This document shows, in pieces, positions 32,864-47,928 of a stretch of 64,000 bases of DNA. Location of the stretch: positions 620,001-684,000 of the forward strand of contig NZ_FZOY01000001.1 of assembly GCF_900188335.1 (NCBI RefSeq). The letters run 5' to 3'. The position numbers were made by a program, and so were the translations under genes. Source of the DNA: Tropicimonas sediminicola (GTDB lineage: Bacteria; Pseudomonadota; Alphaproteobacteria; Rhodobacterales; Rhodobacteraceae). Every line of letters starts with the position of its first letter. Positions within the stretch are counted from its first letter, which is position 1. The notes under the pieces are model-generated. The model did not search any database, was not told the origin of the DNA, and saw nothing but the letters and a program-made list of their open reading frames with translations.

Positions 32864-33011
32864 CGGCGGCATGGACAGATTGTCCCGCCGAAGCTCCGTT
32901 CCTTCCGCCGCCAGGGACATTCTGCTTTTTTGTCGCCCTGACAGCCATTTGTGCTGGAAGTGCCGGGAGCGGCCTGACAGGTTCGCGCCAAACAGGGAGG
33001 GTGGTCGACGG

Positions 33012-33716
33012 ATGGTCGATCTTTGGAGCGGGCTGGTCCAGGCATTCTGGCTGGTCGTGACGTTCAATTCGGAACTCGTCGAGATCGCGCTCCGCTCGCT
33101 GCGGGTGTCTTTCACGGCGTTGCTCGTCGCCTCGCTGATCGCCATGCCCCTCGCCGCGATCCTCGCTGTTAAGCGGTTCCGCTGGCGGCGGGTGGTGATC
33201 GCGGTGCTCAACGCGCTTATGGGCCTGCCGCCGGTCGTCGTGGGGCTTGTCGTCTACGTGCTGCTCTCGCGCTCCGGGCCGCTCGGGGTCCTGGGGCTGC
33301 TCTTCACCCCGACAGCGATGGTGATCGCGCAGGTCATCATCATCGTGCCGCTGATCGCCAGCATCGCCCACCAGTCGCTGCGCGATCTCTGGCAGGAATA
33401 CCACGACCTGCTGATCTCGATGAACGTCACGCAGATGCAAAAGGTCACCACGCTGCTGTGGGACGCCCGCCGGGCCCTTCTGACGGCGGCGCTCGCGGGA
33501 TTCGGACGGGCGATCGGCGAGGTCGGGGCGATCATGATCGTCGGTGGCAATATCGACCACGCCACCCGGGTTCTGACCACGGCGATCGCGCTCGAGACGG
33601 GCAAGGGCGATTTCGCGCTGGCGCTGGCGCTTGGCTTCGTACTGATCGCGCTGGCGATTTCGGTGAGCCTCGCGATCCACTGGCTGAGCCGGACCGAGCG
33701 GGAGGGAAGCTGGTGA
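33012..33716 (+). CDS. tupB: tungstate ABC transporter permease (TupB)
   Basis: A 234-residue membrane permease. ATG 33012 has GGGAGG upstream; the frame is open further back without a good start. About five hydrophobic helices and the EAA-type loop FGRAIGEVGAIMIVGGNI, typical of tungstate/molybdate permeases. It carries tungstate (WO4) across the inner membrane with TupC. The stop overlaps the tupC GTG. Confidence 0.88.
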   Translation: MVDLWSGLVQAFWLVVTFNSELVEIALRSLRVSFTALLVASLIAMPLAAILAVKRFRWRRVVIAVLNALMGLPPVVVGLVVYVLLSRSGPLGVLGLLFTPTAMVIAQVIIIVPLIASIAHQSLRDLWQEYHDLLISMNVTQMQKVTTLLWDARRALLTAALAGFGRAIGEVGAIMIVGGNIDHATRVLTTAIALETGKGDFALALALGFVLIALAISVSLAIHWLSRTEREGSW

Positions 33717-34426
33717 GCGCGCTGTTTCCGGTCGTCCTTGATAGTGCCGAGACGGCGCGGCGCGGGCAGGTGCTGGCCGGTCCGGTGAACCTGACGCTCG
33801 ACGGGCAGGGGATCTGCGTCGTGCTCGGCCCCAACGGCGCCGGCAAGACGTCTCTCCTGCGGCTGATGCACGGGGCGGCACGGCTGACCGCTGGCTCGAT
33901 CCGCTGGTCCTGCCCGACACCGCAGGCACGCAGGGCGCAGGCCTTCGTGTTCCAGCGGCCGGTGATGCTGCGCCGCACGGTGCTGGAGAACCTCGCCTAT
34001 CCGCTGCGGATCCGCGGTGTTCGTCGGAGGGAGGCGATGCAGCGCGCCGCGGATTGGGCGGGGCGCGTGGGCCTCGGCGGCATGCTCGACCGGCAGGCGC
34101 CCGTCCTGTCCGGTGGCGAGCAGCAGAAGCTCGCGCTTGCCCGTGCGCTGATCGCCGAGCCAGCGCTTCTGTTCCTCGACGAGCCCTGCGCCTCGCTCGA
34201 CGGGCGCGCGATGCGCGAGATCGAGGAAATCCTCCTCGCCGCCCGCGCCGCCGGCACCAGCCTGATCCTGTCGACGCACGACATGGGACAGGCGCGACGG
34301 CTGGCCGACGAGGTCGTCTTCATGCTGCACGGCAAGGTGCACGAAGCCGGCCCGGCCCACGATTTTTTCAACCAAACCGCAACGCCCGAAGCACGGGCAT
34401 TTCTTCATGGAGATATTGTCGAATGA
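33713..34426 (+). CDS. tupC: tungstate ABC transporter ATPase (TupC)
   Basis: A 237-residue ABC ATPase from GTG 33713, overlapping the tupB stop. It shows Walker A GPNGAGKTS, signature LSGGEQQKLALARA, Walker B LLFLDEPCASLDG and the H-loop STHDMGQ. There is no C-terminal Mop domain, unlike ModC, so cofactor-level control is not built in. It overlaps tupA by 4 bases. Confidence 0.9.
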   Translation: MSALFPVVLDSAETARRGQVLAGPVNLTLDGQGICVVLGPNGAGKTSLLRLMHGAARLTAGSIRWSCPTPQARRAQAFVFQRPVMLRRTVLENLAYPLRIRGVRRREAMQRAADWAGRVGLGGMLDRQAPVLSGGEQQKLALARALIAEPALLFLDEPCASLDGRAMREIEEILLAARAAGTSLILSTHDMGQARRLADEVVFMLHGKVHEAGPAHDFFNQTATPEARAFLHGDIVE

Positions 34427-35232
34427 TCAGAAAGCTTTCGGTCGCGCTCTGCGCCCTTGCCATCGGCACCGCCGCGCAGGCGGCAGACGTGATGAAGATG
34501 GCGGTCACCACGTCGTTTCATAACTCGGGTCTGGCCGAGGTCCTGCTGCCCGAGATCCTGACCGATCTGGATCTCGAGGTGCAACTTCTGGTCGTCGGCA
34601 CCGGCCAGGCCCTGAAGCTGGGCGAGGCCGGCGACGTGGACGCGATCCTCGTTCACTCCCGCGCGGCCGAGGAGGCCTTTGTCGAACAGGGCTTCGGCAC
34701 CCACCGCCGCGAGATCATGTACAACGATTTCGTCTTCATCGGCCCGGAGGCCGATCCGGCCGGCGTGAAAGCGGCGGAAAGCGCCGTCGACAGCCTGCAG
34801 AAGATCGCCACCGCCGAGGCGAATTTCGTCAGCCGGGGCGATGACAGCGGCACCCACAAGATGGAGCTGAGCCTGTGGAGCAAGGCCGGGCTCGACGCTG
34901 GCACCTTCGGGGATTGGTACAACGCCGTCGGCGCCGGCATGGGCGCGGCCCTGAACACCGCCGCGGGGCTCGACGCCTACATCCTTTCGGACCGCGCGAG
35001 CTGGCTGAACTTCGGCAACAAGGCCGATCTGGGGCTGCTTTATTCGGGCGATCCGGTGCTGTTCAACCAATATGCATTCCTGCCGGTGAACCCGGAGAAA
35101 CATGGCCACGTGCGCAATGACCTCGCAATGAAGCTGGAAGACTGGCTGACCTCCGACAAGGCGAAGGGGCTGATCGACGGCTACACGATCGGCGGCGAGA
35201 CGCTGTTCGTCTTCAACGCCGAGCCGATGTGA
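34423..35232 (+). CDS. tupA: tungstate-binding periplasmic protein (TupA)
   Basis: A 269-residue binding protein with a signal peptide ending at AAQA (about residue 20). The oxyanion site is the TTSFHNSGLAEVLLPE segment, where TupA proteins carry a TTS/T motif, together with SRGDDSGTHKME. The C-terminus DWLTSDKAKGLIDGYTIGGE is a TupA hallmark. Its selectivity for tungstate over molybdate is a family property, not shown here. Placed last in tupBCA, inside the formate dehydrogenase island, it suggests that the enzyme uses tungsten. Confidence 0.9.
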   Translation: MIRKLSVALCALAIGTAAQAADVMKMAVTTSFHNSGLAEVLLPEILTDLDLEVQLLVVGTGQALKLGEAGDVDAILVHSRAAEEAFVEQGFGTHRREIMYNDFVFIGPEADPAGVKAAESAVDSLQKIATAEANFVSRGDDSGTHKMELSLWSKAGLDAGTFGDWYNAVGAGMGAALNTAAGLDAYILSDRASWLNFGNKADLGLLYSGDPVLFNQYAFLPVNPEKHGHVRNDLAMKLEDWLTSDKAKGLIDGYTIGGETLFVFNAEPM

Positions 35233-35265: not shown

Positions 35266-35745
35266 CTATTCGTCGAGCGAGCCGTGAATGGCGAACTGGT
35301 CCAGCCCCGCGTCCTCGGGGCTGATCAGCCGATAGGCCTCCCGAACGCCCGCGGAGGTCAGTTCGCGCGAGACGGTGAGCAAGGTGTTCGGCGCGTGATC
35401 GTCACATAGTTCCCGCATCTGGGCGATCTCCTCCGCCGCCACCGGACGGGCCGCCTCGACCGAGGGGGCGCCGTAGTAGGTGACGAAATGCTGCGCCAGC
35501 AGGTCCGTCAGCGTCTCCATCTCGGCCGGCTCGATCTGCGTTACCGCGACGAAGGTCACGCGCCCGCTGGTCTCCAGCCCGAACCAGCCATTCGCGAAGG
35601 CCTGCCGCGCCTTTCCGCTCAGGTCGCTCTCGGTCCAGTCGGAGAACTCGAAGCCGCCGGAGATGCACCATTCCCCGGTGCGGGCCGGCACGGCATAGAC
35701 CCGCTGGTCGCTCTCGTCGAAATGGATGGCGCGGGCGAGGTTCAT
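35266..35745 (-). CDS. uncharacterised protein, probably DUF6505 family
   Basis: A 159-residue soluble protein starting at ATG 35745 (GGAGA upstream) and overlapping the preceding gene by 4 bases. It begins NLARAIHFDESDQRVYAVPARTGEW, a pattern I associate with the DUF6505 family from alphaproteobacterial formate dehydrogenase loci; the family name is from memory. No cofactor motif is visible; one Cys lies in GEWCISGGFEF and another in MRELCDD. It is the last gene of a four-gene minus-strand operon (DUF6494-like, mrp, ligase-like, this). The role is unknown; the context suggests maturation or quality control of formate dehydrogenase. Confidence 0.65.
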   Translation of the reverse strand: MNLARAIHFDESDQRVYAVPARTGEWCISGGFEFSDWTESDLSGKARQAFANGWFGLETSGRVTFVAVTQIEPAEMETLTDLLAQHFVTYYGAPSVEAARPVAAEEIAQMRELCDDHAPNTLLTVSRELTSAGVREAYRLISPEDAGLDQFAIHGSLDE

Positions 35746-36458
35746 GGGGTGGTCTCCAGGATCGTCGTCAGGGGGATCAGGTGAGTGGTCTGTGCGTCGC
35801 GCAGGAGCATGCCGAAATCCTCGTCGACACCGAGAAAGGTGCCGGTGATGTCGCCGGAGGTGGTTTCCTCGCCGATCCCCTGCGCCAGCCCGCGCCACTC
35901 CGCGTGGAGCGCGCGCGCGCCATCGTCCTCCCAACTGGCGATCCAGTTGAGCGTGTGCCGCGCCCAGGCTTCCAGCAGCCGCGGCGGCGAAACATCGGCG
36001 CAGCCCTCGATGTAGAGCGCCGTGCGGTCGGGCGTGTCGCCGGGACGGTCGGTCTCCGGGATAAGCGGCAGGGTCAGGCCGACGACCATCCATCCGGGGA
36101 TGGCCTCCGGGTCGCGCGTGTCGGCCAGAATACGCAGGCCGCCGCAATGCGCGCCGTTGACGAGGATCCTGCCGTCCCAGCCCAGGTGGACCGCCACTTC
36201 CGGCGGGGCGAGTGCGCCGAGCGCGTTCTGGAAGCTGACTCCGCAGAGCGGCAGCATCGCCATCGCCTTGCCCAGTGGCACGTCGGGCGCGAACACCAGC
36301 GCCGCCTGCAGCCGCGAGGCGCCGAGGTTGTAGGCCACCAACCCCGCGTCACACCCCAGCGTCGCGCGCATCACGGCATGCTCGACCGCGTTGTCGCCAG
36401 TTTCCTCGCCCCACATCAGCGGCGGGAAGGTCAGTTCTTCGGCCTCGGTCATTGTCAT
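35742..36458 (-). CDS. biotin/lipoate-ligase-like protein lacking catalytic motifs
   Basis: A 238-residue protein related to the biotin/lipoate protein ligase fold: the central HLGWDGRILVNGAHCGGLRI aligns by pattern with the WPND...GGKKLAGI block of BirA. The glycine/arginine nucleotide loop (GRGRxGRxW) is absent, and the position of the catalytic lysine appears to be Ala-His-Cys, so ordinary ligase activity is doubtful. ATG 36458 overlaps the mrp stop. It overlaps the following gene by 4 bases. Probably a repurposed binding protein serving the formate dehydrogenase locus. Confidence 0.65.
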   Translation of the reverse strand: MTMTEAEELTFPPLMWGEETGDNAVEHAVMRATLGCDAGLVAYNLGASRLQAALVFAPDVPLGKAMAMLPLCGVSFQNALGALAPPEVAVHLGWDGRILVNGAHCGGLRILADTRDPEAIPGWMVVGLTLPLIPETDRPGDTPDRTALYIEGCADVSPPRLLEAWARHTLNWIASWEDDGARALHAEWRGLAQGIGEETTSGDITGTFLGVDEDFGMLLRDAQTTHLIPLTTILETTP

Positions 36459-37522
36459 GCCACGCCCGCCTCGACGAGGGACCGCGCGACCTGTTCGAAG
36501 GCCTTCGCCTGCGCGCTGTCGGGCTGGCTCACCGCGATCGGCGCGCCGCCATCGGCGGCCAGTCGGATCTGCAGATCGAGCGGCACTTCGGCAAGCAGCG
36601 GCACCCCGAGCTTGGCGGCCTCCGCCGCGACCCCGCCATGTCCGAACACATGCTCCTCGTGGCCGCATTGCGAACAGATATGCGTGCTCATGTTCTCGAT
36701 CATGCCGACGATCGGCACGTTGAGCTGGCGGAACATGTCGATCCCCTTGCGGGCGTCGAGCAGCGCCACGTCCTGCGGGGTGGAGACGATGACCGCACCG
36801 TCCACCTGCGCCTTCTGGCTGAGGGTCATCTGGACGTCGCCGGTGCCGGGCGGCAGGTCCACCAGCAGCACGTCGAGTGCGCCCCACTGGACCTGGGTCA
36901 GCATCTGCTGCAGCGCCCCCATCAGCATCGGCCCGCGCCAGACGACGGCCTGATCCTCGTTGGTCATCAGGCCGATGGACATCATGGTCACGCCGTGGTT
37001 GCGCAGCGGCAGGATGGTTTTGCCATCCGGGCTCGCCGGGCGGCCGGAGACGCCGAGCATCCGTGGCTGCGAGGGGCCATAGACATCGGCATCCAGCAGC
37101 CCCACGCGGCGTCCCATCTGCGCGAGTGCACAGGCGAGGTTGGCGGCCACGGTGGACTTGCCGACGCCGCCCTTGCCGCTGGCAATCGCCACGATATGCG
37201 CGATCCCGGGGATCTTCTGCGGCCCCTTCGGCTCCGCGGGGCGTTGCGGGCGCAGGTTCGGCGGGGCCGTTTCGGTGTGGCCGGTCATCACGACGGACAC
37301 CGAGCTCACGCCTTCGAGCGCGCCGAGCGCGGCCTCGGCCGCATCCTTGGCGGCGCCATAGGCGGCAGCATGCTGCGGCGGGATTTCCAGCACGAAACGG
37401 ACCGCCCCCTCATCGGAGACATTCAGCGCCCGGACCACTCCGCTGCCCACGATGTCGGTGCCGGCGACCGGATCGGAGATCGTCTTGAGCGCCGCCAGGA
37501 CGGCTTCCCTGTCGATGGCCAA
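36455..37522 (-). CDS. Mrp/ApbC-type iron-sulfur carrier ATPase
   Basis: 355 residues. Residues 1-85 form a MIP18/DUF59-like domain (AALKTISDPVAGTDIVGSGVV). The P-loop GKGGVGKST is near 116-124. The metal-binding CSQCG pair follows in the C-terminal half. Proteins of this family hold and transfer 4Fe-4S clusters in the cytoplasm. Its position, 4 bases after the DUF6494-like gene, in an island with a five-subunit load of FeS clusters suggests a dedicated cluster loader for the formate dehydrogenase or ferredoxin. Confidence 0.9.
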   Translation of the reverse strand: MAIDREAVLAALKTISDPVAGTDIVGSGVVRALNVSDEGAVRFVLEIPPQHAAAYGAAKDAAEAALGALEGVSSVSVVMTGHTETAPPNLRPQRPAEPKGPQKIPGIAHIVAIASGKGGVGKSTVAANLACALAQMGRRVGLLDADVYGPSQPRMLGVSGRPASPDGKTILPLRNHGVTMMSIGLMTNEDQAVVWRGPMLMGALQQMLTQVQWGALDVLLVDLPPGTGDVQMTLSQKAQVDGAVIVSTPQDVALLDARKGIDMFRQLNVPIVGMIENMSTHICSQCGHEEHVFGHGGVAAEAAKLGVPLLAEVPLDLQIRLAADGGAPIAVSQPDSAQAKAFEQVARSLVEAGVA

Positions 37523-37526
37523 GGGG

Positions 37527-37718
37527 TTACTCCCGACCGGAGATCTTGCCGGTGACCTCGTGGGTCATGCCGAGTTCTTCGATGGTAACGACCGCCTTGA
37601 TGGCATAGCTTTTGCCCTCGGTCTCGGCACCTCGCAGCGCTTCCTCGATGGCCTGCTGCGAGGTCACGCCGACCTGCTTCAGGAACTTTCGCATCGACAT
37701 GTTGAAATCGTCGCTCAT
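37527..37718 (-). CDS. small conserved protein, probably DUF6494
   Basis: 63 residues: MSDDFNMSMRKFLKQVGVTS begins it and an extended-strand segment (KAVVTIEELGMTHEVTGKI) ends it. I associate this with the DUF6494 family of small alphaproteobacterial proteins near mrp and formate dehydrogenase genes, from memory. No cysteines or membrane segment. It has AGGAAA upstream and leads the four-gene minus-strand operon. Function unknown. Confidence 0.7.
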   Translation of the reverse strand: MSDDFNMSMRKFLKQVGVTSQQAIEEALRGAETEGKSYAIKAVVTIEELGMTHEVTGKISGRE

Positions 37719-37774
37719 GGCCTGTTTCCTTTCACTCGATTGACGGACCGAAGCCTACCTGCCTAGGTTTGTCC

Positions 37775-38521
37775 ATGGGAATGCGCGTTCTGCTCTTCTG
37801 TTCCGTGCTTCTCCTGCCCCCGGCAGCGGGGCGGGCGGACGAGAAGCTGGTGCGTCTCTACGTGCCGCCGGAGCTGGTGGAAACCGGGCTCATGCAGCAC
37901 ATCTTGCCGCGCTTCTCTCTCAAGACGCAGATCCGGGTCGAACTGGTCGACAGCGCCGAGGAAGCCGAGCTGCTGCTGGGCGGCGATGGGACGGCGCTTT
38001 TCGAAGGAGCGGGCCAGGTCTGGCATCTGGGGCGGCAGGGCGCGGGCGGCGCGGCGGCCGAGCGGTTCGCGGAGTGGCTCGGCTCCGATGTCGGCCGCAA
38101 CACGGTGACGGGCTTCGCCCCCGACGGCGTGGCGCTCTTCGCTCTGCCCGGCCCGACCGAGACGGAGACCGTGGCAATCGCGCCCGATGGAGACGCGGCC
38201 CTCGGCTGGACGGTGTCGCGCGAGAAATGCACCCGCTGCCACGCGGTGGACGACGAAAGCCGGATGGCCGGAATCGGCTCCACCCCGAGCTTCAGCGTCC
38301 TGCGCAGCCTGGGCGACTGGGAATACCGGTTCTCCACCTTCTACGCGCTCAACCCGCACCCGTCCTTCACCATCATCGAAGACGTGACGCCGCCGTTTCC
38401 GGAAAACCGGCCGCCTCCCATCTCGCCGATCCAGCTGACGCTGGAGGAGGTCGAGGCCGTGCTGGCCTTTGTCGCGGCGATGGAGGCCGCGGATCTCGGG
38501 GCGCCGCTGCATCATCAGTGA
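37775..38521 (+). CDS. periplasmic cytochrome c with truncated TupA-like N-terminal domain
   Basis: 248 residues with a signal peptide (RVLLFCSVLLLPPAAGRA). I use ATG 37775; ATG 37781 is equally possible. Residues about 24-135 resemble TupA with its middle removed: LVETGLMQHILPRF parallels HNSGLAEVLLPEIL, and EWLGSDVGRNTVTGFAPDGVALFAL parallels DWLTSDKAKGLIDGYTIGGETLFVF of the tupA product. From about 150 a monohaem cytochrome follows: CTRCHAVD, MAGIGSTPSF and the helix LTLEEVEAVLAFVAAM. It overlaps the convergent ferredoxin gene by 7 bases. Probably an electron acceptor or sensor-like periplasmic partner of formate dehydrogenase. Confidence 0.75.
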   Translation: MGMRVLLFCSVLLLPPAAGRADEKLVRLYVPPELVETGLMQHILPRFSLKTQIRVELVDSAEEAELLLGGDGTALFEGAGQVWHLGRQGAGGAAAERFAEWLGSDVGRNTVTGFAPDGVALFALPGPTETETVAIAPDGDAALGWTVSREKCTRCHAVDDESRMAGIGSTPSFSVLRSLGDWEYRFSTFYALNPHPSFTIIEDVTPPFPENRPPPISPIQLTLEEVEAVLAFVAAMEAADLGAPLHHQ

Positions 38522-40464
38522 TCGCGACGCTTCTTGAGGTAATCCTCCGTCGTGCGCGGCCTCGGGCGCTCGCCGGCGGCGAAGGGGTTGTCCTGGGAAT
38601 GGAACTGCGCGTTGACCCGGCAATTGTCGCACATCTGGATCATCCGCAGCTTGTCGGGCCCGGCAAACATCGAGTGGCTTTCAAGCTTGGCCGTGATCTT
38701 CTCGATGGTCGACTTCACGCCGAAGAGCGCGCCGCATTCGATGCAGGCAAAGGGCTCTTCCTCGTTCAGGATTTCCTGCTGCAGGGCACTGTCCGAGAGG
38801 TTCAGCCGCGGCTCGTAGGCGATGGCATCCTCGGGGCAGATATGGGCGCAGAGCCCGCATTGCAGGCAGGCATCCTCCTGAAACCGCAGCTGCGGCAGAT
38901 CCGGGTTGTCGCCGAGCGCGCCGGAGGGGCAGAGCGACACGCAGGACAGGCAGAGCGTACAGGCGTCCTTGTCCACCAGGACAGCGCCGTAGGGAGCGCC
39001 CTCGGGCAGCGGCAGGGCGTCGGTGCCGGGATGCAGTGCCTTCGCGGCCTGCCGGGTGATCTGGCGGCGGGTGCCCATCGGGCGGATCGGCGCGGCGATT
39101 GGGGCAGGGGCCGCTTCTGTGTAGAGCGCGTCCGACATGGCGTCGGGATCGGTCAGGTCGAGGATACGTACCTTTTCCTCACCGGCAATCGCCCGCGCGA
39201 GCGCGACCTGCGCTTCCATCGCGTCGCGATCCGCGCCACGGCGCGGCAGCAGGCTGACCGATGCGAAGCCCGCCGCGAGCGCCGCGACGGCCTCTGCGTG
39301 GCCGAAGGCGCCGATCGCCGGCAGGTCCATCGGGATGACGTCGGCCGGCAGACCCGCACCATAGCGGGCGGAGAGCGCGATCATCTCGGCGCCGTCGGCA
39401 TCGTGCACCAGCAGACGCGGCGCGGTGCCGTCGGCCTCGAGATAGGCGCGGGCCAATGTCTGAATCCGCCGGAAGATCAGCTCCACCGTCGGCGCGTCGT
39501 AGGAAATCGCGCCGGAGGGGCAGGCGGCGGAACAGGCGCCGCAGCCGGCGCAGATCTCCGGGTCGACCGTCACATGGTCGCCGTCCGGCGTGATGGCGCC
39601 GGTCGGGCAGAGATCGAGGCACCTGGTGCAGCCGGTCTGCTCCGCCCGGGAATGGGCACAGAGCAGCGGCTCGGTGCGGACGTAAAGCGGCTTCTCGAAG
39701 GTACCGACCAGGTGCGAGGCTGCAAGGGTCGCCGCGGCCACTGCCGGCGGATGGCCGGGATCTGCCCGCAGGTAGCCTTCGCGCTTCTCGTGCGCAGGGA
39801 ACAGCGGAGACTCCCCGCGCAGGTCGAGGATGATGTCGCACTGGGAGCGGCCGCCATCGCGTGGCTCGGTGAGGGTGAACGCGCCGCGTCCGCCGGGCTC
39901 GACCTGCTGCAGGGCGTCGATCACCACGTCGAACCGCCCGAGAGCGCCGCTCGCCCGGCGCAGCCGTCCGACGACGACGTCGTAGGCGCGGTTCTCCGGC
40001 ATCTCGTCGGCGCTTTCCAGCAGCACGGTCACGCCAAGATGGTCCTGAAGCTGCTCGGCAGCCGCAAGCGCGACCTTGGGCGCGCCGAGGATCAGGCACA
40101 GCCCTTCGGAAACGATGTCGAGCGTCTTTTGCGGCGATGCGGGGAGCATGGCCTCGGCCGCCAGCGCGGACATTTTGGGCAGTTTTGGCGCCTCGTCGGC
40201 ACTCCAGCCCGCGCGGTCCCGCAGGTCGAGAACAGGGGCCGGATCGACCCCGATCTCGGCCGCAAGAGCCTGGAATGTGCGTGCCTCCTGGGTACAGCAA
40301 ATAATCGCGTCGCCCGCCGCGAGGGCCGCCGCGGCGCGGTCGATCTGGCTGGTGCAGAGCGCGGTGCAGGGGCTTTTGACATCGAGCCCGGTGGTCTTGC
40401 GCAGCCCGTCGACATCGACATGCTGACTGCCCAAGCAATCACATGTTATCAAAGACTTGGGCAT
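38515..40464 (-). CDS. multi-cluster 4Fe-4S ferredoxin of the formate dehydrogenase locus
   Basis: A 649-residue cytoplasmic iron-sulfur protein. Readable cluster motifs in order: CTRCLDLCPTGAI, CAGCGACSAACPSGAI, CTLCLSCVSLCPSGAL, CLQCGLCAHICPEDAI; a terminal pair CIECG and CDNCR may bind another metal. The N-terminal 270 residues contain CDCLGSQ, SPCTALC and CCTQEA and look like an HdrA-like or quinone-independent redox platform. ATG 40464 has AGGGAGG upstream. It is divergent from the DUF3305-led fdh operon. Its large number of clusters suggests electron delivery during maturation or to a soluble acceptor; its role has not, to my knowledge, been settled. Confidence 0.83.
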   Translation of the reverse strand: MPKSLITCDCLGSQHVDVDGLRKTTGLDVKSPCTALCTSQIDRAAAALAAGDAIICCTQEARTFQALAAEIGVDPAPVLDLRDRAGWSADEAPKLPKMSALAAEAMLPASPQKTLDIVSEGLCLILGAPKVALAAAEQLQDHLGVTVLLESADEMPENRAYDVVVGRLRRASGALGRFDVVIDALQQVEPGGRGAFTLTEPRDGGRSQCDIILDLRGESPLFPAHEKREGYLRADPGHPPAVAAATLAASHLVGTFEKPLYVRTEPLLCAHSRAEQTGCTRCLDLCPTGAITPDGDHVTVDPEICAGCGACSAACPSGAISYDAPTVELIFRRIQTLARAYLEADGTAPRLLVHDADGAEMIALSARYGAGLPADVIPMDLPAIGAFGHAEAVAALAAGFASVSLLPRRGADRDAMEAQVALARAIAGEEKVRILDLTDPDAMSDALYTEAAPAPIAAPIRPMGTRRQITRQAAKALHPGTDALPLPEGAPYGAVLVDKDACTLCLSCVSLCPSGALGDNPDLPQLRFQEDACLQCGLCAHICPEDAIAYEPRLNLSDSALQQEILNEEEPFACIECGALFGVKSTIEKITAKLESHSMFAGPDKLRMIQMCDNCRVNAQFHSQDNPFAAGERPRPRTTEDYLKKRRDH

Positions 40465-40807
40465 GGTTCCTCCCTTGGCCGGACGGTGCGTTGCAGGGGC
40501 ATCCGAGCGGTTGTGCGCAGGCAGCCTAGCCGCGATTCGCGGCCGGGGACAACCGATTTCACCGCCGCTCCGAGGCCGCTGTGGGCGGTTGGTTTCGGCG
40601 GGAAGGCGGGGAATTGATTCGACCGTTCGGCGCGGGTCTAATCCGAACAAAAACACTCAGGTTGGACAATTCGTCCTTGCCCCCCGAAAGCGGTCACCCG
40701 GGCAGGGCAAATTGTCCTTGGCGATCACATGTCGACGATGGTGCACAAAAAACCCTTTCGCAGATGCAGGTTGCTGCCCCATGCTGGGTGCCGGAGGAGT
40801 AACGCGC
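40465..40807. promoter_or_regulatory. divergent control region of ferredoxin and fdh operon
   Basis: 343 bases without a gene. An inverted pair GGACAATT (40664-40671) and AATTGTCC (40710-40717) is centred 46 bases apart; each is followed by a GTCCTTG element (40673-40679 and 40714-40720), so the site also reads as a direct repeat. It lies about 90-145 bases upstream of the DUF3305 start. This is a candidate binding site for the NtrC-like regulator at 49355. Confidence 0.5.
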
Positions 40808-41371
40808 GTGTTTCACAATCCCAGCCAGTACTGGACGCTGCCCATTGGGGTGGTCATCCGCCGCTCGCCCGGCGTCACCCGCTGGGCGCAGTGGAGCTGG
40901 AAGGCCACAGCCGTGTTGCCCGGCGCCGCAGAGGCGACGTGGCGAGAGCTGCGCCGCGACGGCGAACGCGTCGAGTTCCACGCGGCGACCGTTCCACTCG
41001 AGCTGCACGGAGCCGAGACGGAGGCGTACCTTCACGGGCTGACTGCCGAGGTTCCCTGCATCTACGTGATCCTGCGATCCATCACCGGCGAGTGGCCGCT
41101 TGAGGTGGTTCTCGCCACGGCCTCGCCCTACGAGGCGCAGGACTACGCCGACAGCGGCGAGGAGATCGTGGAGAAGGTGCCGATGACCGCCGGGCTCGAG
41201 GCCTGGGTCTGGGAGTTCGTCGAGGCTTTCCACAAGGAAGAGGTCTTCGTGAAGCGCCGTCGCGACAAGAAGCGGATCGACATCGTCGAGGACGGTATCG
41301 GCGATCCGCGGGTCGACAAGCCGGCGGATGTCTATGCGTCGCCCGCGCTCAAGCGGAGGCGGCTGCAATGA
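40808..41371 (+). CDS. DUF3305 protein
   Basis: 187 residues from GTG 40808, behind a very strong GGAGGAG; an ATG at 40781 lacks a ribosome site. The start HNPSQYWTLPIGVVIRRSPGVTRWAQWSW and the middle VILRSITGEWPLEVVLATASPYEAQDY are characteristic of DUF3305. This family is found almost only upstream of formate dehydrogenase genes; its function is unknown, but a role in enzyme assembly is assumed. First gene of the fdh operon; it overlaps the next gene by 4 bases. Confidence 0.87.
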   Translation: MFHNPSQYWTLPIGVVIRRSPGVTRWAQWSWKATAVLPGAAEATWRELRRDGERVEFHAATVPLELHGAETEAYLHGLTAEVPCIYVILRSITGEWPLEVVLATASPYEAQDYADSGEEIVEKVPMTAGLEAWVWEFVEAFHKEEVFVKRRRDKKRIDIVEDGIGDPRVDKPADVYASPALKRRRLQ

Positions 41372-41943
41372 GGGGCGGCGATTTCTGGAGCCGTCGCAAG
41401 GCGGCGGTAGAGGCCGAGGCCCGGACCGAGGCGGCAGCCGTCGAGGCGGCCCGCGAGGCCGAGGCAGAGGCCGCGCTGGCGGAACGCGACGATGCCGAGA
41501 TCCTGGCCGAGCTGGGCCTGCCCGAGCCGGAGACGCTGGAGACCTCGGAGCAGGTGCGCGCCTTCCTTGCCTCCGCGGTGCCACAGCGCCTGAAGACCCG
41601 CGCCCTGCGCCGGCTCTGGACGACGAACCCGGTGCTCGCCAACCTCGATGGTCTGAACGACTACGACACCGATTTCACAGATGCCGCGACCTGCGTGGAA
41701 AACATCCAGACGCTCTACAAGGTTGGCCGAGGGATGGTCGACCGGGCGCTCGAAGTGCCGGCGGACCCCGCCCCCGAGCAGGATGCGCCGGACGAGACAG
41801 AGGCGCCCGAAGAACTGATCGCGGCAAACGAGCCGCCGTCGGCGGAGGAGCCCGCCGAAACCGATGCGCCACAGGAAATCGCGACAGCGCAGGAGGCCGC
41901 GCCGACGGTCGGCCGGATGCGCTTTCGCTTCGAGACAGGTTGA
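41368..41943 (+). CDS. DUF3306 protein
   Basis: 191 residues. The N-terminus FWSRRKAAVEAEARTE is a charged coiled coil; the conserved core RALRRLWTTNPVLANLDGLNDYDTDF and the C-terminal GRMRFRFETG are family features. The region 125-180 is Glu/Pro/Ala-rich and probably disordered. DUF3306 always accompanies DUF3305 and fdh genes. It overlaps its neighbours on both sides (4 and 1 bases), so expression is coupled. Function unknown. Confidence 0.87.
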   Translation: MRGGDFWSRRKAAVEAEARTEAAAVEAAREAEAEAALAERDDAEILAELGLPEPETLETSEQVRAFLASAVPQRLKTRALRRLWTTNPVLANLDGLNDYDTDFTDAATCVENIQTLYKVGRGMVDRALEVPADPAPEQDAPDETEAPEELIAANEPPSAEEPAETDAPQEIATAQEAAPTVGRMRFRFETG

Positions 41944-42575
41944 TGACGGAAGAGACGAAGATGACCGCAGCTGACGCAGCCCTGGACAGGACCATCGCCG
42001 AGGAGGATCGCTTCCGGGCCGACCTCTACAATTTCCTCGGGCTGCTCCTTGCCGCGCCGCCCGACGAGGGATTGCTCGCGCAGACGGCGTCCCTCAGCGG
42101 CGGCGACAGCGAGCTGGGCCGCGCCATCGACACGCTTGCGCGCGTCGCCAAGGTCTCCCGCCCCAAGAAGGTCGAAGGCGAGTTCGGCCGGCTGTTCATC
42201 GGTCTTGGCCGGGGCGAGCTCTTGCCCTACGCGAGCTATTACCTGACCGGGTTTCTCAACGAGAAGCCGCTGGCCGCCCTGCGCCGGGACATGGTCGCGC
42301 GCGGCATGGTGCGGGCCGAGGACAAGTTCGAGCCCGAAGACGGGATCGCGAGCCTGATGGAGATGATGGGGGCGATGATCGTGGGCCGCTTCGGAAAGCC
42401 GGCCGACCTCGCGACCCAGAAGGACTTCTTCAACAAGCACATCCGGCCGTGGGCCGGTCACTTTTTCACGGATCTCGAAGGGGCGAAGAACTCGGTTTTC
42501 TACGCGCCGGTCGGCACTGTCGGCCGCGTGTTCATGGAGATCGAGGCGGAAGCCTTTCGGATGAGCGCGGGCTGA
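41943..42575 (+). CDS. TorD-family formate dehydrogenase chaperone
   Basis: A 210-residue all-helical protein of the TorD/DmsD family: RADLYNFLGLLLAAPPDEGLL at the start, EFGRLFIGLGRGELLPYASYYLTG in the core, and DFFNKHIRPWAGHFFTDLE. Such chaperones bind the Tat leader and apo-enzyme of molybdo/tungsto-oxidoreductases until the cofactor is inserted. ATG 41943 overlaps the DUF3306 stop (TGATG); a second start at 41961 is possible. Its client would be the fdhA product. Confidence 0.87.
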   Translation: MTEETKMTAADAALDRTIAEEDRFRADLYNFLGLLLAAPPDEGLLAQTASLSGGDSELGRAIDTLARVAKVSRPKKVEGEFGRLFIGLGRGELLPYASYYLTGFLNEKPLAALRRDMVARGMVRAEDKFEPEDGIASLMEMMGAMIVGRFGKPADLATQKDFFNKHIRPWAGHFFTDLEGAKNSVFYAPVGTVGRVFMEIEAEAFRMSAG

Positions 42576-42970: not shown

Positions 42971-45952
42971 ATGTTGAGGAAGAAGACCAACGGGGTTGCG
43001 AGACGCCCCCAGCGGAACACCCTCCTGACCGAGGCCGCGAGCGCCTCTGTCGATCGCCGCGCCTTCCTGCGCGGATCCGGCCTCGTGATCGGGGGTCTGT
43101 CGGCCATCGCGGCGACAGGCGGCACCGTCACCCAGGCCACCGCCCAGACCGTTGCACCGAAGCCGGTGGAACTGAAGAAATCCGTGTGCACCCATTGTTC
43201 CGTCGGTTGCACCGTGATCGCGGAAGTCTCCGACGGTGTCTGGATCGGGCAGGAGCCCGGCTGGGACAGCCCGTTCAACCTCGGTGCGCATTGCGCCAAG
43301 GGGGCGTCGGTCCGCGAGCACGCTCACGGCGAGCGCCGCCTCAAGTACCCGATGAAGAAAGAGGGTGGCGAGTGGAAGCGCATCTCCTGGGAGCAGGCGA
43401 TCGACGAGATCGGCGACCAGATGCTGGCGATCCGCGAGGAAAGCGGCCCTGACAGCGTCTACTGGCTCGGCTCGGCCAAGCACAGCAACGAGCAGGCCTA
43501 CCTGTTCCGCAAGTTCGCCGCCTACTGGGGCACGAACAACGTGGACCACCAGGCCCGTATCTGCCACTCCACCACGGTTGCCGGGGTTGCGAACACATGG
43601 GGCTACGGCGCCATGACCAACTCCTACAACGACATCCACAATTCCAAGGCGATCCTGATCATCGGCGGCAACCCGGCCGAGGCGCACCCCGTCTCGCTGC
43701 TGCACGTGCTGCGCGCCAAGGAGCAGAACAACGCGCCGCTGATCGTCTGCGACCCGCGTTTCACCCGCACCGCGGCCCATGCCGACGAGTATGTCCGGTT
43801 CCGTCCGGGCTCGGACGTGGCGCTGGTCTGGGGCATCCTGTGGCACATCTTCGAGAACGGCTGGGAGGACAAGGAGTTCATCCGCACCCGTGTCTGGGGG
43901 ATGGACCAGATCCGCGAGGAGGTCGCCCGCTGGACGCCCGACGAGGTGGAGCGCGTGACCGGCGCACCCGAATCCCAGCTTCGCCGCGTGGCGATGCAGC
44001 TGGCCAACAACCGTCCCGGCACCCTGATCTGGTGCATGGGCGGCACCCAGCACACCAACGGCAACAACAACACGCGCGCCTACTGCATCCTGCAGCTCGC
44101 GCTCGGCAACATGGGCGTTGCCGGTGGCGGAACCAACATCTTCCGCGGCCATGACAACGTGCAGGGGGCGACCGACCTCGGCGTGCTCGCCGACACGCTG
44201 CCGGGCTACTACGGCCTCTCGGCCGGCGCCTGGGGCCACTGGGCCCGGGTGTGGGAAGAGGATCCCGAATGGCTCAAGGGCCGTTTCGCCACGATGAAAG
44301 GCGCCGACGGCAAGGACAAGCAGATGATGAACCTCACCGGTATCCCGGTGAGCCGCTGGATCGACGGGGTCCTTGAAGCCAAGGAGAACCTGGAGCAGCC
44401 GGACAACACCCGGGCCATGGTGCTCTGGGGGCATGCGCCGAACTCCCAGACCCGGATGACCGAGATGAAGACGGCGATGGAGAAGCTCGACCTGCTGGTC
44501 GTGGTGGACCCGTACCCGACGGTCTCGGCGATCCTGCACGACCGCACCGACGGCTGCTACCTGCTGCCGGCCGCGACCCAGTTCGAGACCCGCGGCTCGG
44601 TGACCGCCTCGAACCGCTCGCTCCAGTGGCGTGAGCAGGTTGTGGATCCGCTGTTCGAGTCCAAGCCGGATCACGTGATCCTTGCGATGTTCTCGAAGAA
44701 ATTCGGGTTCGACGACCGGATCTTCCGCAACATCTCGATGGACGGTGAACTGGAGCCGAATGTCGAGGACCTGACGCGCGAGTTCAACCGCGGCATGTGG
44801 ACGATCGGCTACACCGCCCAGAGCCCGGAGCGGCTGAAACTCCACATGGAGAACCAGCACACCTTCGATCGCACGACGCTGCAGGCGGTCGGTGGTCCGG
44901 CCGACGGGGATTACTACGGTATGCCCTGGCCCGCGTGGGGAACGCCGGAGATGAACCACCCCGGCACGCCCAACCTCTACGACATGTCGAAGCCTGTCGC
45001 AGAGGGCGGCTTGACCTTCCGCGCGCGTTTCGGCGTCGAGCGGGATGGCCAGAACCTGCTGGCCGACGGTGTCTACTCGGCAGGCTCGGAGATCCAGGAC
45101 GGCTATCCCGAGTTCACCATGCAGATGCTGATCGACCTCGGCTGGGACAAGGATCTGACTGCCTATGAACGGCGGATGATCGAGTATGTCGCCGGTTTCA
45201 TCAAAGAGCGTCCCGAGATGGGTGCGGAGGTCGGCGAGCAGTCGCAGACCGGCCCGTATCCGTCGGACTTCGCCGATGCGATCGGGGGCGTGAACTGGAA
45301 GACCGACCTTTCGGGCGGCATCCAGCGCGTTGCGATCGCGCATGGCTGTGCCCCCTTCGGCAACGCCAAGGCGCGCGCCGTGGTCTGGACCTTCCCCGAC
45401 CCGGTGCCGATCCATCGCGAGCCGCTCTACACCAACCGGCGCGATCTCGTGGCGGATTACCCGACCTATGCCGACAAGCTGTTCTGGCGGGTGCCGACGA
45501 TGTACGAGTCGATCCAGAAGAACGACTTCTCGAAGGATTACCCGATCATCCTCACCTCCGGGCGACTGGTGGAATACGAGGGCGGCGGGGACGAGACGCG
45601 TTCGAACCCCTGGCTCGCCGAACTCCAGCAGGACATGTTCGTCGAGATCAACCCGCGCGACGCCAACAACCTCGGCGTGCGGGACGGCTCGCAGGTCTGG
45701 GTCGAGGGGCCCGAGGGCGGCAAGGTCAAGGTCATGGCGATGGTGACCGAGCGGGTGGGCGAGGGCGTGGCCTTCATGCCCTTCCACTTCGGCGGCCATT
45801 ACCAGGGCGAGGATCTCAGGTCCAAGTACCCCGATGGAGCGGATCCCTACGTTCTGGGGGAAAGCGCCAACGTCGCGCAGACCTATGGCTACGACTCGGT
45901 CACCCAGATGCAGGAGACCAAGGCCACCCTCTGCAAGATCATGCCAGCGTAA
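42971..45952 (+). CDS. fdhA: formate dehydrogenase catalytic (alpha) subunit
   Basis: 993 residues. A Tat leader (DRRAFLRGSG, RR at 29-30) exports it folded. A 4Fe-4S site is formed by C73, C76, C80 and C108, followed by Lys110. The cofactor-ligating residue is Cys198 (QARICHST, codon TGC), in the place of selenocysteine of E. coli FDH-N, followed by His199. The rest has the standard molybdopterin domains, with the MGD-binding end at DARDANNLGVRDGSQ-like sequence. It oxidises formate to CO2 in the periplasm. The metal may be tungsten, given tupABC nearby. Strong GGGAG ribosome site. Confidence 0.95.
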   Translation: MLRKKTNGVARRPQRNTLLTEAASASVDRRAFLRGSGLVIGGLSAIAATGGTVTQATAQTVAPKPVELKKSVCTHCSVGCTVIAEVSDGVWIGQEPGWDSPFNLGAHCAKGASVREHAHGERRLKYPMKKEGGEWKRISWEQAIDEIGDQMLAIREESGPDSVYWLGSAKHSNEQAYLFRKFAAYWGTNNVDHQARICHSTTVAGVANTWGYGAMTNSYNDIHNSKAILIIGGNPAEAHPVSLLHVLRAKEQNNAPLIVCDPRFTRTAAHADEYVRFRPGSDVALVWGILWHIFENGWEDKEFIRTRVWGMDQIREEVARWTPDEVERVTGAPESQLRRVAMQLANNRPGTLIWCMGGTQHTNGNNNTRAYCILQLALGNMGVAGGGTNIFRGHDNVQGATDLGVLADTLPGYYGLSAGAWGHWARVWEEDPEWLKGRFATMKGADGKDKQMMNLTGIPVSRWIDGVLEAKENLEQPDNTRAMVLWGHAPNSQTRMTEMKTAMEKLDLLVVVDPYPTVSAILHDRTDGCYLLPAATQFETRGSVTASNRSLQWREQVVDPLFESKPDHVILAMFSKKFGFDDRIFRNISMDGELEPNVEDLTREFNRGMWTIGYTAQSPERLKLHMENQHTFDRTTLQAVGGPADGDYYGMPWPAWGTPEMNHPGTPNLYDMSKPVAEGGLTFRARFGVERDGQNLLADGVYSAGSEIQDGYPEFTMQMLIDLGWDKDLTAYERRMIEYVAGFIKERPEMGAEVGEQSQTGPYPSDFADAIGGVNWKTDLSGGIQRVAIAHGCAPFGNAKARAVVWTFPDPVPIHREPLYTNRRDLVADYPTYADKLFWRVPTMYESIQKNDFSKDYPIILTSGRLVEYEGGGDETRSNPWLAELQQDMFVEINPRDANNLGVRDGSQVWVEGPEGGKVKVMAMVTERVGEGVAFMPFHFGGHYQGEDLRSKYPDGADPYVLGESANVAQTYGYDSVTQMQETKATLCKIMPA

Positions 45953-45963
45953 GGAGATAGAGA

Positions 45964-46557
45964 ATGGCTAGAGCGAAATTTCTCTGCGACGCCGAGCGCT
46001 GCATCGAGTGCAACGCCTGCGTCACTGCGTGCAAGAACGAGCACGAGGTGCCCTGGGGCATCAACCGCCGCCGTGTTGTGACCATCCAGGATGGCAAGCC
46101 CGGTGAACGGTCGATCTCCGTCGCCTGCATGCATTGTTCGGATGCGCCCTGCATGGCGGTCTGCCCTGTGGACTGCTTCTACCAGAACGAGGAGGGGGTG
46201 GTTCTCCACTCCAAGGACCTCTGCATCGGCTGCGGCTACTGCTTCTACGCGTGCCCCTTCGGCGCGCCGCAGTATCCGCAGGCGGGCAACTTCGGCTCCC
46301 GCGGCAAGATGGACAAGTGTACCTTCTGTGCCGGCGGCCCGGAGGAGACCCACTCCAATGCGGAGTTCTCCAAGTACGGCCGCAACCGGATCGCGGAAGG
46401 CAAGCTGCCGATCTGCGCCGAGATGTGCTCCACCAAGGCACTGCTCGCAGGCGACGGCGACGTCGTCTCCGCGATCTATCGCGAGCGGGTCGTGGCCCGA
46501 GGCTTCGGCTCCGGCGCTTGGGGCTGGGGCACCGCCTACGACCAGAAGGGCGGCTGA
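45964..46557 (+). CDS. fdhB: formate dehydrogenase iron-sulfur (beta) subunit, short form
   Basis: 197 residues with four 4Fe-4S motifs: CIECNACVTAC, CMHCSDAPCMAVC, CIGCGYCFYAC and CTFC...CAEMC. It moves electrons from FdhA to the cytochrome b subunit. It is about 100 residues shorter than E. coli FdnH and lacks a C-terminal membrane helix. It follows fdhA by 11 bases, with AAGGAG overlapping the fdhA stop. Confidence 0.93.
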   Translation: MARAKFLCDAERCIECNACVTACKNEHEVPWGINRRRVVTIQDGKPGERSISVACMHCSDAPCMAVCPVDCFYQNEEGVVLHSKDLCIGCGYCFYACPFGAPQYPQAGNFGSRGKMDKCTFCAGGPEETHSNAEFSKYGRNRIAEGKLPICAEMCSTKALLAGDGDVVSAIYRERVVARGFGSGAWGWGTAYDQKGG

Positions 46558-46567
46558 CCGAGGGAAT

Positions 46568-46592
46568 GGCGGCCGGACACGCACCGGCCGCC
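46568..46592 (+). other. intercistronic hairpin between fdhB and fdhC
   Basis: A perfect 9-bp stem (GGCGGCCGG with CCGGCCGCC) with a 7-base loop, 11 bases after fdhB. A second stem with a TTCG loop lies at about 46622-46643. They may tune expression of the membrane subunit relative to fdhAB. Confidence 0.55.
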
Positions 46593-46692
46593 GCACCCAC
46601 TTGTCCAGAATGCGCGGCTCGCCCGGGATCTTCGGATCCGGGGCGGGTCTGCGTTCTACGGCAATTTCCAAGCTAGGATCGAGTGAGACAAC

Positions 46693-47928
46693 ATGAGCAA
46701 TCGAAACTCCGGCTTCGGCGCATTCCTTGCCCTGACCGTGGTGGTCGTGGTCGCTGCGCTGGTGGCATCTCTGGCCGCGCCCGACGCGAATGGCGTGGAC
46801 GAGGCGGCCCTTGCGGCGGCCCGCGAGGCGACGGGCGGGGCGCAGACCCGCGAGGACATCATGGCCCGCCAGCGGGGTCTCTCCATCGACGACACCTTCC
46901 GCAGCTCCGCAATCGGCGATCCCGCCGCGGGGGCGGCCCCAAACCAGCAGCTCGGCACGCTTGGCGGGGTCTCCGACCCTGAGCTGTGGCGGGCGCTCCG
47001 CTACAACTCGGCCGATATCAACGCCTCGGCCCGTGGTCCCGCGACCAACGTCCTGATCCAGGATGGCGGCATGACCTGGCTCAACTTTCGCGAGAACATC
47101 ATCGCCAAGTGGGGCGGATGGCTCTTGCTCGGCATGATCGGCCTCCTGGGCTTCTTCTACCTGACCCGCGGGCGGGTGCCGATCGCCGGCGAGAAGACCG
47201 GCCGGCTGGTACTTCGCTTCGGAAGCCTCGACCGCTTCTGCCACTGGCTGACCGCCAGCTCGTTCCTGCTGCTCGGCATCACCGGGCTGATCTCGATGTA
47301 CGGTCGGCCCTGGCTCATCTCGATCATGGGCAAGGAGGCCCATGCCGACCTCGCCCACTGGTCCAAGCTGATCCATAACAGCGTCAGCTTCGCCTTCATC
47401 CTCGGCGTGATCCTGATCTTCCTGAAGTGGATCCGCTTCAACATTCCCAACATGAACGACCTGCGCTGGCTCCGCGTCATGGGCGGGCTCTTCGACGATT
47501 CCATCCACCCGCCGGCGGGCAAGTTCAACGCCGGGCAAAAGATCATCTTCTGGTCCGTCATGCTGATGTCGGCCGGCGTGGTTGCGACGGGTATCAGCCT
47601 GCTGCTGCCGTTCCGCTTCGCGGTCATGGGGGACATTTTCGCCTGGGTGAACGGGATCGGGGTGCTGTCCTGGTTCGGGTTCGGCGAGCTGCCGGTACAC
47701 CTCTCGCCACAGGAGGAGATGCAATACACCCAGATCGTTCACGCCGTCTTTGCGTTCCTGTTCATGGCGATGATCATCGGCCACATCTACATCGGAACGC
47801 TCGGCATGGAGGGCGCCTTCGACGCCATGGGCACGGGCTATGTCGAGGAGCAATGGGCGCGCGAGCACCATTCGATCTGGCTCGAAGAGGTGAAGGCGGA
47901 TGAGCGTGCGGCGCAGCCGGCGGAATAG
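46693..47928 (+). CDS. fdhC: formate dehydrogenase cytochrome b556 (gamma) subunit
   Basis: A 411-residue membrane protein. TM1 is about 8-28; a periplasmic stretch of about 100 residues follows; then four helices of the FdnI/FdoI type. Haem-ligand histidines lie in DRFCHWLTASSF, KLIHNSVSF and VHAVFAFLFMAMIIGHIYIG. It anchors FdhAB and conducts electrons to quinone or a cytochrome c. It overlaps the next gene by 29 bases. Confidence 0.92.
   Translation: MSNRNSGFGAFLALTVVVVVAALVASLAAPDANGVDEAALAAAREATGGAQTREDIMARQRGLSIDDTFRSSAIGDPAAGAAPNQQLGTLGGVSDPELWRALRYNSADINASARGPATNVLIQDGGMTWLNFRENIIAKWGGWLLLGMIGLLGFFYLTRGRVPIAGEKTGRLVLRFGSLDRFCHWLTASSFLLLGITGLISMYGRPWLISIMGKEAHADLAHWSKLIHNSVSFAFILGVILIFLKWIRFNIPNMNDLRWLRVMGGLFDDSIHPPAGKFNAGQKIIFWSVMLMSAGVVATGISLLLPFRFAVMGDIFAWVNGIGVLSWFGFGELPVHLSPQEEMQYTQIVHAVFAFLFMAMIIGHIYIGTLGMEGAFDAMGTGYVEEQWAREHHSIWLEEVKADERAAQPAE

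Follow-up and report, generated by a model that had tools for sequence, protein, structure and literature searches.

The window analysed here, a stretch of 64,000 nucleotides from the alphaproteobacterium Tropicimonas sediminicola (genome of 5.17 Mb in 32 contigs), carries a gene in which half of a TupA-type binding protein is fused to a monohaem cytochrome c. Such half-TupA/haem fusions form a real family and are not a single-genome oddity: lobe and haem domain are found together in 103 of the 295 sampled genomes of the source family, and the fusion is spread over about 100 sampled genera. Seven of its relatives (L004-L010) come from Tropicimonas, Pacificoceanicola, Tropicibacter, Shimia, Litoreibacter and two members of the Paracoccaceae/Rhodobacteraceae. 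In five plasmid records, the gene is annotated four times as 'hypothetical protein' and once as 'c-type cytochrome'. We propose, with a probability of about 0.5, that the product is an optional periplasmic cytochrome c of an FDH3-type formate dehydrogenase (a name taken from NCBIfam), in which a TupA lobe, blind to its former ligand, would serve as a docking module. The original prediction for this DNA had read the protein as one lobe of a tungstate receptor reused for docking or ligand sensing on an electron carrier of a tungsten formate dehydrogenase. The TupA origin of the lobe, the missing second lobe, the fusion to a haem domain and the link to fdh stood up to the analysis; oxyanion sensing is now considered unlikely, and the link lies with fdh and not with tup. 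The fusion gene and the parts of its product are as follows.

37775-38521, + strand: half-TupA/monohaem cytochrome c fusion gene, ATG at 37775, stop at 38519-38521 (translation, 248 aa)
37775-37837, + strand: Sec-type signal peptide, residues 1-21 (by eye; helix 2-12 in the model)
37838-38158, + strand: N domain, residues 22-128 (about 107 residues), reduced lobe A of a TupA-type binding protein (hhalign, PDB profile search, AlphaFold2, Foldseek, own-genome search)
37910-37924, + strand: RFSLK, residues 46-50 (R46 in 109 of 109 rows, F47 in 108, K50 in 108; R46 and K50 differ from TupA)
38159-38518, + strand: linker and monohaem cytochrome c domain, residues 129-248 (Pfam PF00034)
38228-38242, + strand: haem motif CTRCH, residues 152-156 (its two Cys and its His never vary in 124 rows)
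38357-38359, + strand: H195, candidate distal haem ligand (found in all 124 rows, one of which is a duplicate)

Origin of the N domain and fate of its ligand site

Using hhalign, we aligned an N-domain profile, built from 109 family members, to one of 33 TupA sequences. Residues 24-72 align with TupA 22-70 (E 5.8e-7) and residues 36-126 with TupA 180-266 (E 9e-9), the second match overlapping the first in the query. The convincing part of the second match is residues 92-126 against TupA 232-266, with an E-value of 9.7e-10 when the second half was compared alone; the first half, treated in the same way, aligns over residues 24-70 with TupA 22-68 (E 9.3e-8). These are the very segments in which the original prediction had noticed parallels to both ends of TupA. 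The real scores of 55.9, 44.0 and 53.4 compare with maxima of 19.0, 17.7 and 16.7 in 60 TupA column shuffles per comparison, with 13.3, 8.9 and 10.1 for reversed TupA, and with 9.2-18.6 for 12 other families of the locus (the fdhD and mobA profiles being built from only three relatives each), the shuffled and unrelated controls lying 2.5-3 times below the real scores.

Other profile searches lead to the same family. Against the PDB, the four best matches of the fusion family profile are 3muq, 5my5 (TupA), 3cvg and 6xkw (a cytochrome, reached via the haem part); 3muq and 5my5 are matched at both ends, and 3lr1, a tungstate-binding protein, comes eighth. In the source genome, the lobe profile finds two places only at E≤10, the fusion gene itself (E 1.9e-38) and TupA (E 0.0058, C-terminal part only). 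The lobe HMM also matches the TupA gene in all three fusion-free stretches from fdhA-bearing genomes that contain tupA (E 8.2e-6 to 4.6e-4). Across 385 alphaproteobacterial genomes, the fusion profile has matches in 110 at E≤1e-4; when 13 scan loci (L137-L149) were compared with the 33 TupA, ten proved to be TupA (56-69% identity to the best) and three to match via the haem part. Single-sequence searches (Pfam, NCBIfam, PDB phmmer) gave little, and the relation to TupA emerges with profiles: a Pfam search of the fusion protein alone returned no SBP match at E≤10, and three Pfam SBP models match 2, 2 and 1 of 57 relatives at E≤1.

AlphaFold2 modelled the N domain with pLDDT values of 82-94 in blocks covering residues 21-120, and of 66 for 121-130. 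With this model, Foldseek ranked the TupA-type chains 3muq, 3lr1 and 5my5 first, fourth and eighth, with probabilities of 0.99-1.00 over 54-57 columns; however, none of the matches had E≤0.001, and the TM-scores of these three chains are below 0.2. Foldseek alone would be insufficient. The TupA origin of the N domain, which we regard as established, rests mainly on sequence profiles. The tupA-type family represented in the window is the likely source of the lobe. The N domain is smaller than a full lobe A, TupA residues 71 to about 98 being without a clear counterpart.

In TupA, lobe A comprises residues 2-76 and 201-251 and lobe B residues 91-200; the TTTS of lobe A lies opposite R118, T124 and D170, with which His59 is depicted, as described in PMC5517513. 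The fusion has only 19 residues (73-91) between the two matched ends, against about 160 in TupA, in agreement with the predicted absence of the second lobe. Lacking lobe B, it also lacks the Arg, Thr and Asp ligand positions of TupA in the hhalign alignment. The kept lobe has changed as well. TTS and the His are present in 33 of 33 TupA rows, in which SRGDDSGTH is likewise invariant except for one Asp (30/33). In the fusion family, the TTS site mostly reads A/V-P-x, and no counterpart of the lobe-A His was identified in the N domain. With the Arg-bearing lobe missing and other residues in place of TTS in the remaining one, tungstate binding by the N domain as in TupA appears very unlikely. The ligand-sensing role that had been envisaged fares no better: with the lobe-A ligand motif gone in the alignment with the 33 TupA, oxyanion sensing is unlikely.

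The fusion family has acquired other fixed positions. R46 never varies and K50 does so in a single row, whereas the 33 TupA rows have mostly E, A or Q at the former position and D or E at the latter (K in two rows at each); F47 is also found in 5 of the 33 TupA. R46 and K50 lie four residues apart in a predicted helix spanning residues 39-51 (AlphaFold2), the end of which we take to be far from the ligand cleft. Being in the second half of this helix 1, they would point to the side away from the old cleft, by the usual topology of the fold. We read R46 and K50, from their conservation, as a putative new contact surface.

The haem domain and its lobe-less relatives

The monohaem domain announced by the original prediction is borne out by a single CTRCH and a match to the Cytochrom_C profile. 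PF00034 matches the fusion protein with an E-value of 0.0039, under the gathering score, and 51 of 57 relatives at E≤1, the best at 4.6e-5. In an alignment of 124 haem-domain rows (one row, from L159, entered twice), G144, C152, C155, H156, S172, F173, P194 and H195 never vary. A conserved Met, the distal ligand by which a class I-like cytochrome is recognised, was sought in these 124 rows and not found; the commonest one, M164, occurs in 78 rows and is only 8 residues from H156. Because no Met is conserved and H195 is invariant, a bis-His or five-coordinate haem is likely. A lower potential would be expected from either arrangement. AlphaFold2 pLDDT is below 50 for residues 127-248 of the full protein, and a model of the haem domain alone has a mean of 48.9; these models are too poor to be used, so that the candidate sixth ligand is assigned from conservation.

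The same haem domain exists without the lobe. Within the family sample, 106 genomes match the fusion: 103 have lobe and haem domain, two (G004 and G054) the haem domain only, and G080 a weak partial match. The lobe is thus kept in 103 of 105 family genomes with the haem domain. In the source family, the loci L113 and L114 encode a lobe-less cytochrome, in stretches without any other gene of the locus. Among 14 further stretches, ten (L150-L159), from families other than f1 and f80, carry a lobe-less haem gene, which adjoins fdhA in six (L150-L153, L156 and L158). L150 has the same gene order as the window, with an open frame of 156 codons in place of the fusion. Of the other four stretches, L160 and L161, from family f80, combine the lobe with the haem domain, L163 holds a tup locus and L162 yielded no match. 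A phylum-wide scan added two lobe-less matches (G711 and G904). Hence, the lobe is optional for the haem domain.

We built a tree of the haem domain from 61 rows and 111 columns. Six distant lobe-less rows form a set of their own (97/96), and L151, L152 and L159 group weakly with the lobe-bearing L100, L111 and L112. L113 falls among lobe-bearing rows (81/92), hinting at a loss of the lobe there, while L150 and L114 are placed without resolution. The tree does not decide between gain and loss, but the ranges favour a gain of the lobe in this lineage rather than its loss elsewhere, the range of the lobe being narrow and that of the haem domain wider.

The formate dehydrogenase locus

The genes around the fusion in the window are listed below.

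32871-34426, + strand: tupB and tupC, permease and ATPase (ORFs, named by eye and from the original prediction; adjoining tupA in relatives)
34423-35232, + strand: tupA-type gene, two-lobed binding protein (NCBIfam tung_bind_TupA, E 1.6e-51, 175.2 bits for a cut-off of 400; PBP_like_2, E 2.7e-34)
35266-37718, - strand: DUF6505, biotin/lipoate ligase-like + DUF4444, Mrp/NUBPL-like ATPase (36455-37522) and a 63-aa ORF (37527-37718) that is DUF6494 in annotated relatives (Pfam, ORF, synteny)
38515-40464, - strand: 4Fe-4S protein gene, convergent with the fusion gene and overlapping it by 7 bases (Pfam; 82 of 85 loci)
40802-42575, + strand: DUF3305, DUF3306 and a TorD/NarJ-type chaperone (Pfam; 82, 82 and 80 of 85 loci)
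42971-47928, + strand: fdhA, fdhB (FDH3 beta, 343.5 bits, cut-off 240) and fdhC (gamma, 139.3 bits, cut-off 115.85) (NCBIfam, Pfam)
47900-49207, + strand: WD40-cytochrome c, directly after fdhC (Pfam; sequence)

The fusion gene starts 2.54 kb after the tupA stop (35232). As the window TupA scores under the NCBIfam cut-off, the word tungstate rests on similarity here; fdhA likewise scores under the cut-offs of the NCBIfam models that it matches. The row formed by the 63-aa ORF and the Mrp-like, ligase-like and DUF6505 genes is divergent to the fusion gene. With its neighbours on both sides lying on the other strand, the fusion is probably transcribed alone and not with fdhABC; a scan of 37400-38700 for promoters and terminators found none. 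Judged by eye, the N terminus of FdhA has a twin-arginine motif and that of the fusion a Sec-type signal, so that both should face the periplasm. In family alignments, FdhA (42971-45952) is mostly matched over its full length (1-993) or to near residue 742 by frames that are about as long, suggesting that the family has two C-terminal variants.

Synteny was examined in 85 stretches of at least 7 kb, 83 with and two without the lobe, some being shortened by contig ends. In addition to the counts listed above, the ligase-like gene is present in 81, DUF6505 in 80, fdhA in 79 and Mrp in 77; tupC is present in 36 and tupA in 32. The synteny of the fusion is therefore with the FDH3-type fdh locus rather than with tup. 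The fusion is found on plasmids as well (records L190 and L189): in Sagittula sp. P11, the fdh locus including the fusion lies on a 348-kb plasmid, and in Sulfitobacter sp. S190, a 146-kb plasmid record opens with the fusion, tup, DUF3305 and DUF3306.

Co-occurrence was counted as well. Matches to fdhA (E≤1e-150) are found in 136 of the 295 family genomes and matches to tupA (E≤1e-10, many at 45-51% identity) in 194. The 103 lobe-bearing genomes include 100 with fdhA and 101 with tupA, so that the tight association with fdh expected by the original prediction is observed, and a wide occurrence without fdh or tup genes, which would have spoken against it, is not. In the three lobe-bearing genomes without an fdhA match (G069, G019 and G158), the fusion sits on contigs of less than 9 kb; the G069 contig breaks off within fdhA and the G019 contig after DUF3306. 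The two without tupA, G227 and G290, are 96 and 99% complete. Phylum-wide, the fusion profile matches 10 of 398 genomes at E≤1e-12, all from the same class.

A tupA match is present in 134 of the 136 fdhA-bearing family genomes against 60 of the 159 others, an indication that FDH3 uses tungsten in this family. Among the fdhA-bearing genomes, it occurs in 98 of 100 with the fusion and in 36 of 36 without. A link between fusion and tup over and above fdh was sought and not found.

Formate dehydrogenase loci also exist without the fusion. No fusion match was obtained in 34 of the 136 fdhA-bearing family genomes, seven of which have only a distant fdhA (60-63% identity). In 20 stretches taken from the other 27, no haem-domain match was found at E≤0.001. 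Both the Mrp and the 4Fe-4S gene are held by 17 of these 20 stretches, and in these 17 their midpoints are 1.6-2.0 kb apart, compared with about 2.5 kb when the fusion lies between them. The DUF6505, ligase-like + DUF4444 and Mrp-type genes (35266-37718 in the window) flank fdh in 17 of the 20 stretches even without the fusion. From the 34 fusion-free fdhA genomes and their closed-up flanks, it follows that FDH3 does not need the fusion, which is an optional component.

Proposed role and known systems

We infer that a haem domain, which in other Alphaproteobacteria is lobe-less and often located at fdh loci, was joined at its N-terminal side to a shortened TupA lobe A. Having very probably lost oxyanion binding, this lobe may have become a protein-docking module: R46 and K50, separated by a single turn in the latter half of helix 1, would hold the haem beside a partner. 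The partner would most likely be the periplasmic FdhA-FdhB-FdhC complex, and electrons from formate would pass to or through the haem of the fusion.

The strongest competitor, which we still find rather unlikely, places the protein in maturation or sensing: a Met-less cytochrome would read the redox state of the periplasm, or help to activate or repair the enzyme together with the DUF3305, DUF3306, TorD-type, Mrp and 4Fe-4S proteins. These accessory genes are indeed the ones found closest to the fusion and most regularly (77-82 of 85 loci), and none of its Met positions is conserved through the 124 haem rows, unlike the WD40-cytochrome, whose haem domain has GSKMPM as a likely Met ligand. However, the accessory genes remain in 17 of 20 inspected loci without the fusion. 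Moreover, the fusion goes with the WD40-cytochrome, which is present in 41 of 52 genomes with it against 9 of 26 without (78 of the 136 fdhA-bearing genomes covered; p 3.2e-4, a value that, like all co-occurrence p-values here, ignores kinship), a better fit to a periplasmic electron arm.

The TupA ancestry of the lobe, together with a tupA match in 101 of 103 lobe-bearing genomes, brings to mind the ancestral partner of TupA: the lobe could bind the tungstate permease TupB, the haem coupling or blocking tungstate uptake according to redox state or formate supply. Nothing beyond ancestry and general co-occurrence speaks for this, and we hold it to be improbable, as tupA is no commoner with the fusion than without once fdhA is given (98/100 and 36/36), adjoins the fusion in only 32 of 85 loci, and the conserved residues presumably occupy the end of helix 1 that is distant from the rim of the cleft. 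A redox-linked adaptor, in which the haem-bearing half receptor would dock on the tungsten formate dehydrogenase as well as on the tungstate permease and couple formate oxidation to tungsten supply, also seems doubtful to us. So does a passive lobe, kept merely as a folded spacer or export aid after the gene fusion. Conservation is lower in the lobe than in the haem domain (in the same eight relatives, columns average 75% identity for the haem part and 70% for the whole protein), and lobe-less forms exist, one of them (L150) at the same locus; yet R46, F47, K50 and W101 vary little or not at all, both across 57 rows with overall identity as low as 33% and across 28 lobes, and 103 of 105 family genomes with the haem domain keep the lobe. 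That the N domain is an unrelated alpha/beta domain, as the lack of a Foldseek match at E≤0.001 and of a Pfam SBP domain in the fusion protein might suggest, is highly improbable, since hhalign against its controls, the PDB profile search and the own-genome search all point to TupA.

Two-lobed binding proteins are usually considered to require the pair. In the present family, half of such a protein, with its ligand site gone, has been kept within a cytochrome across about 100 sampled genera, and we see in it a natural example of a transport receptor that has probably become a docking domain, for which the lobe-less relatives and the fusion-free genomes are ready controls. The fusion also suggests a so far unrecognised haem component in the FDH3-type formate dehydrogenase, itself probably dependent on tungsten.

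A full-text search of the open-licence literature, including cases of binding proteins with cytochromes and of half lobes, returned no description of such a fusion, nor any text in which WD40, cytochrome c, formate dehydrogenase and fdhC come together. Compared with TupA (5my5, 3lr1; NCBIfam NF041772), the N domain is homologous to both lobe-A segments, but the second lobe and the oxyanion residues named above are absent and a haem domain is attached. The monohaem cytochromes c of L150-L159 share the haem domain, with its PSF and PH motifs and no conserved Met, and differ in having no TupA lobe. The fdh loci with DUF3305, DUF3306 and a NarJ-family chaperone treated in PMC4464133 represent the same kind of neighbourhood, although 'cytochrome c' has 0 occurrences in the main text of that article. 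Finally, the engineered half ribose-binding proteins of PMC9815098 are single lobes too, both halves being described there as stable and tending to dimerise; those halves are laboratory constructs without a haem fusion, whereas the half TupA described here is a natural one, joined to a cytochrome c.
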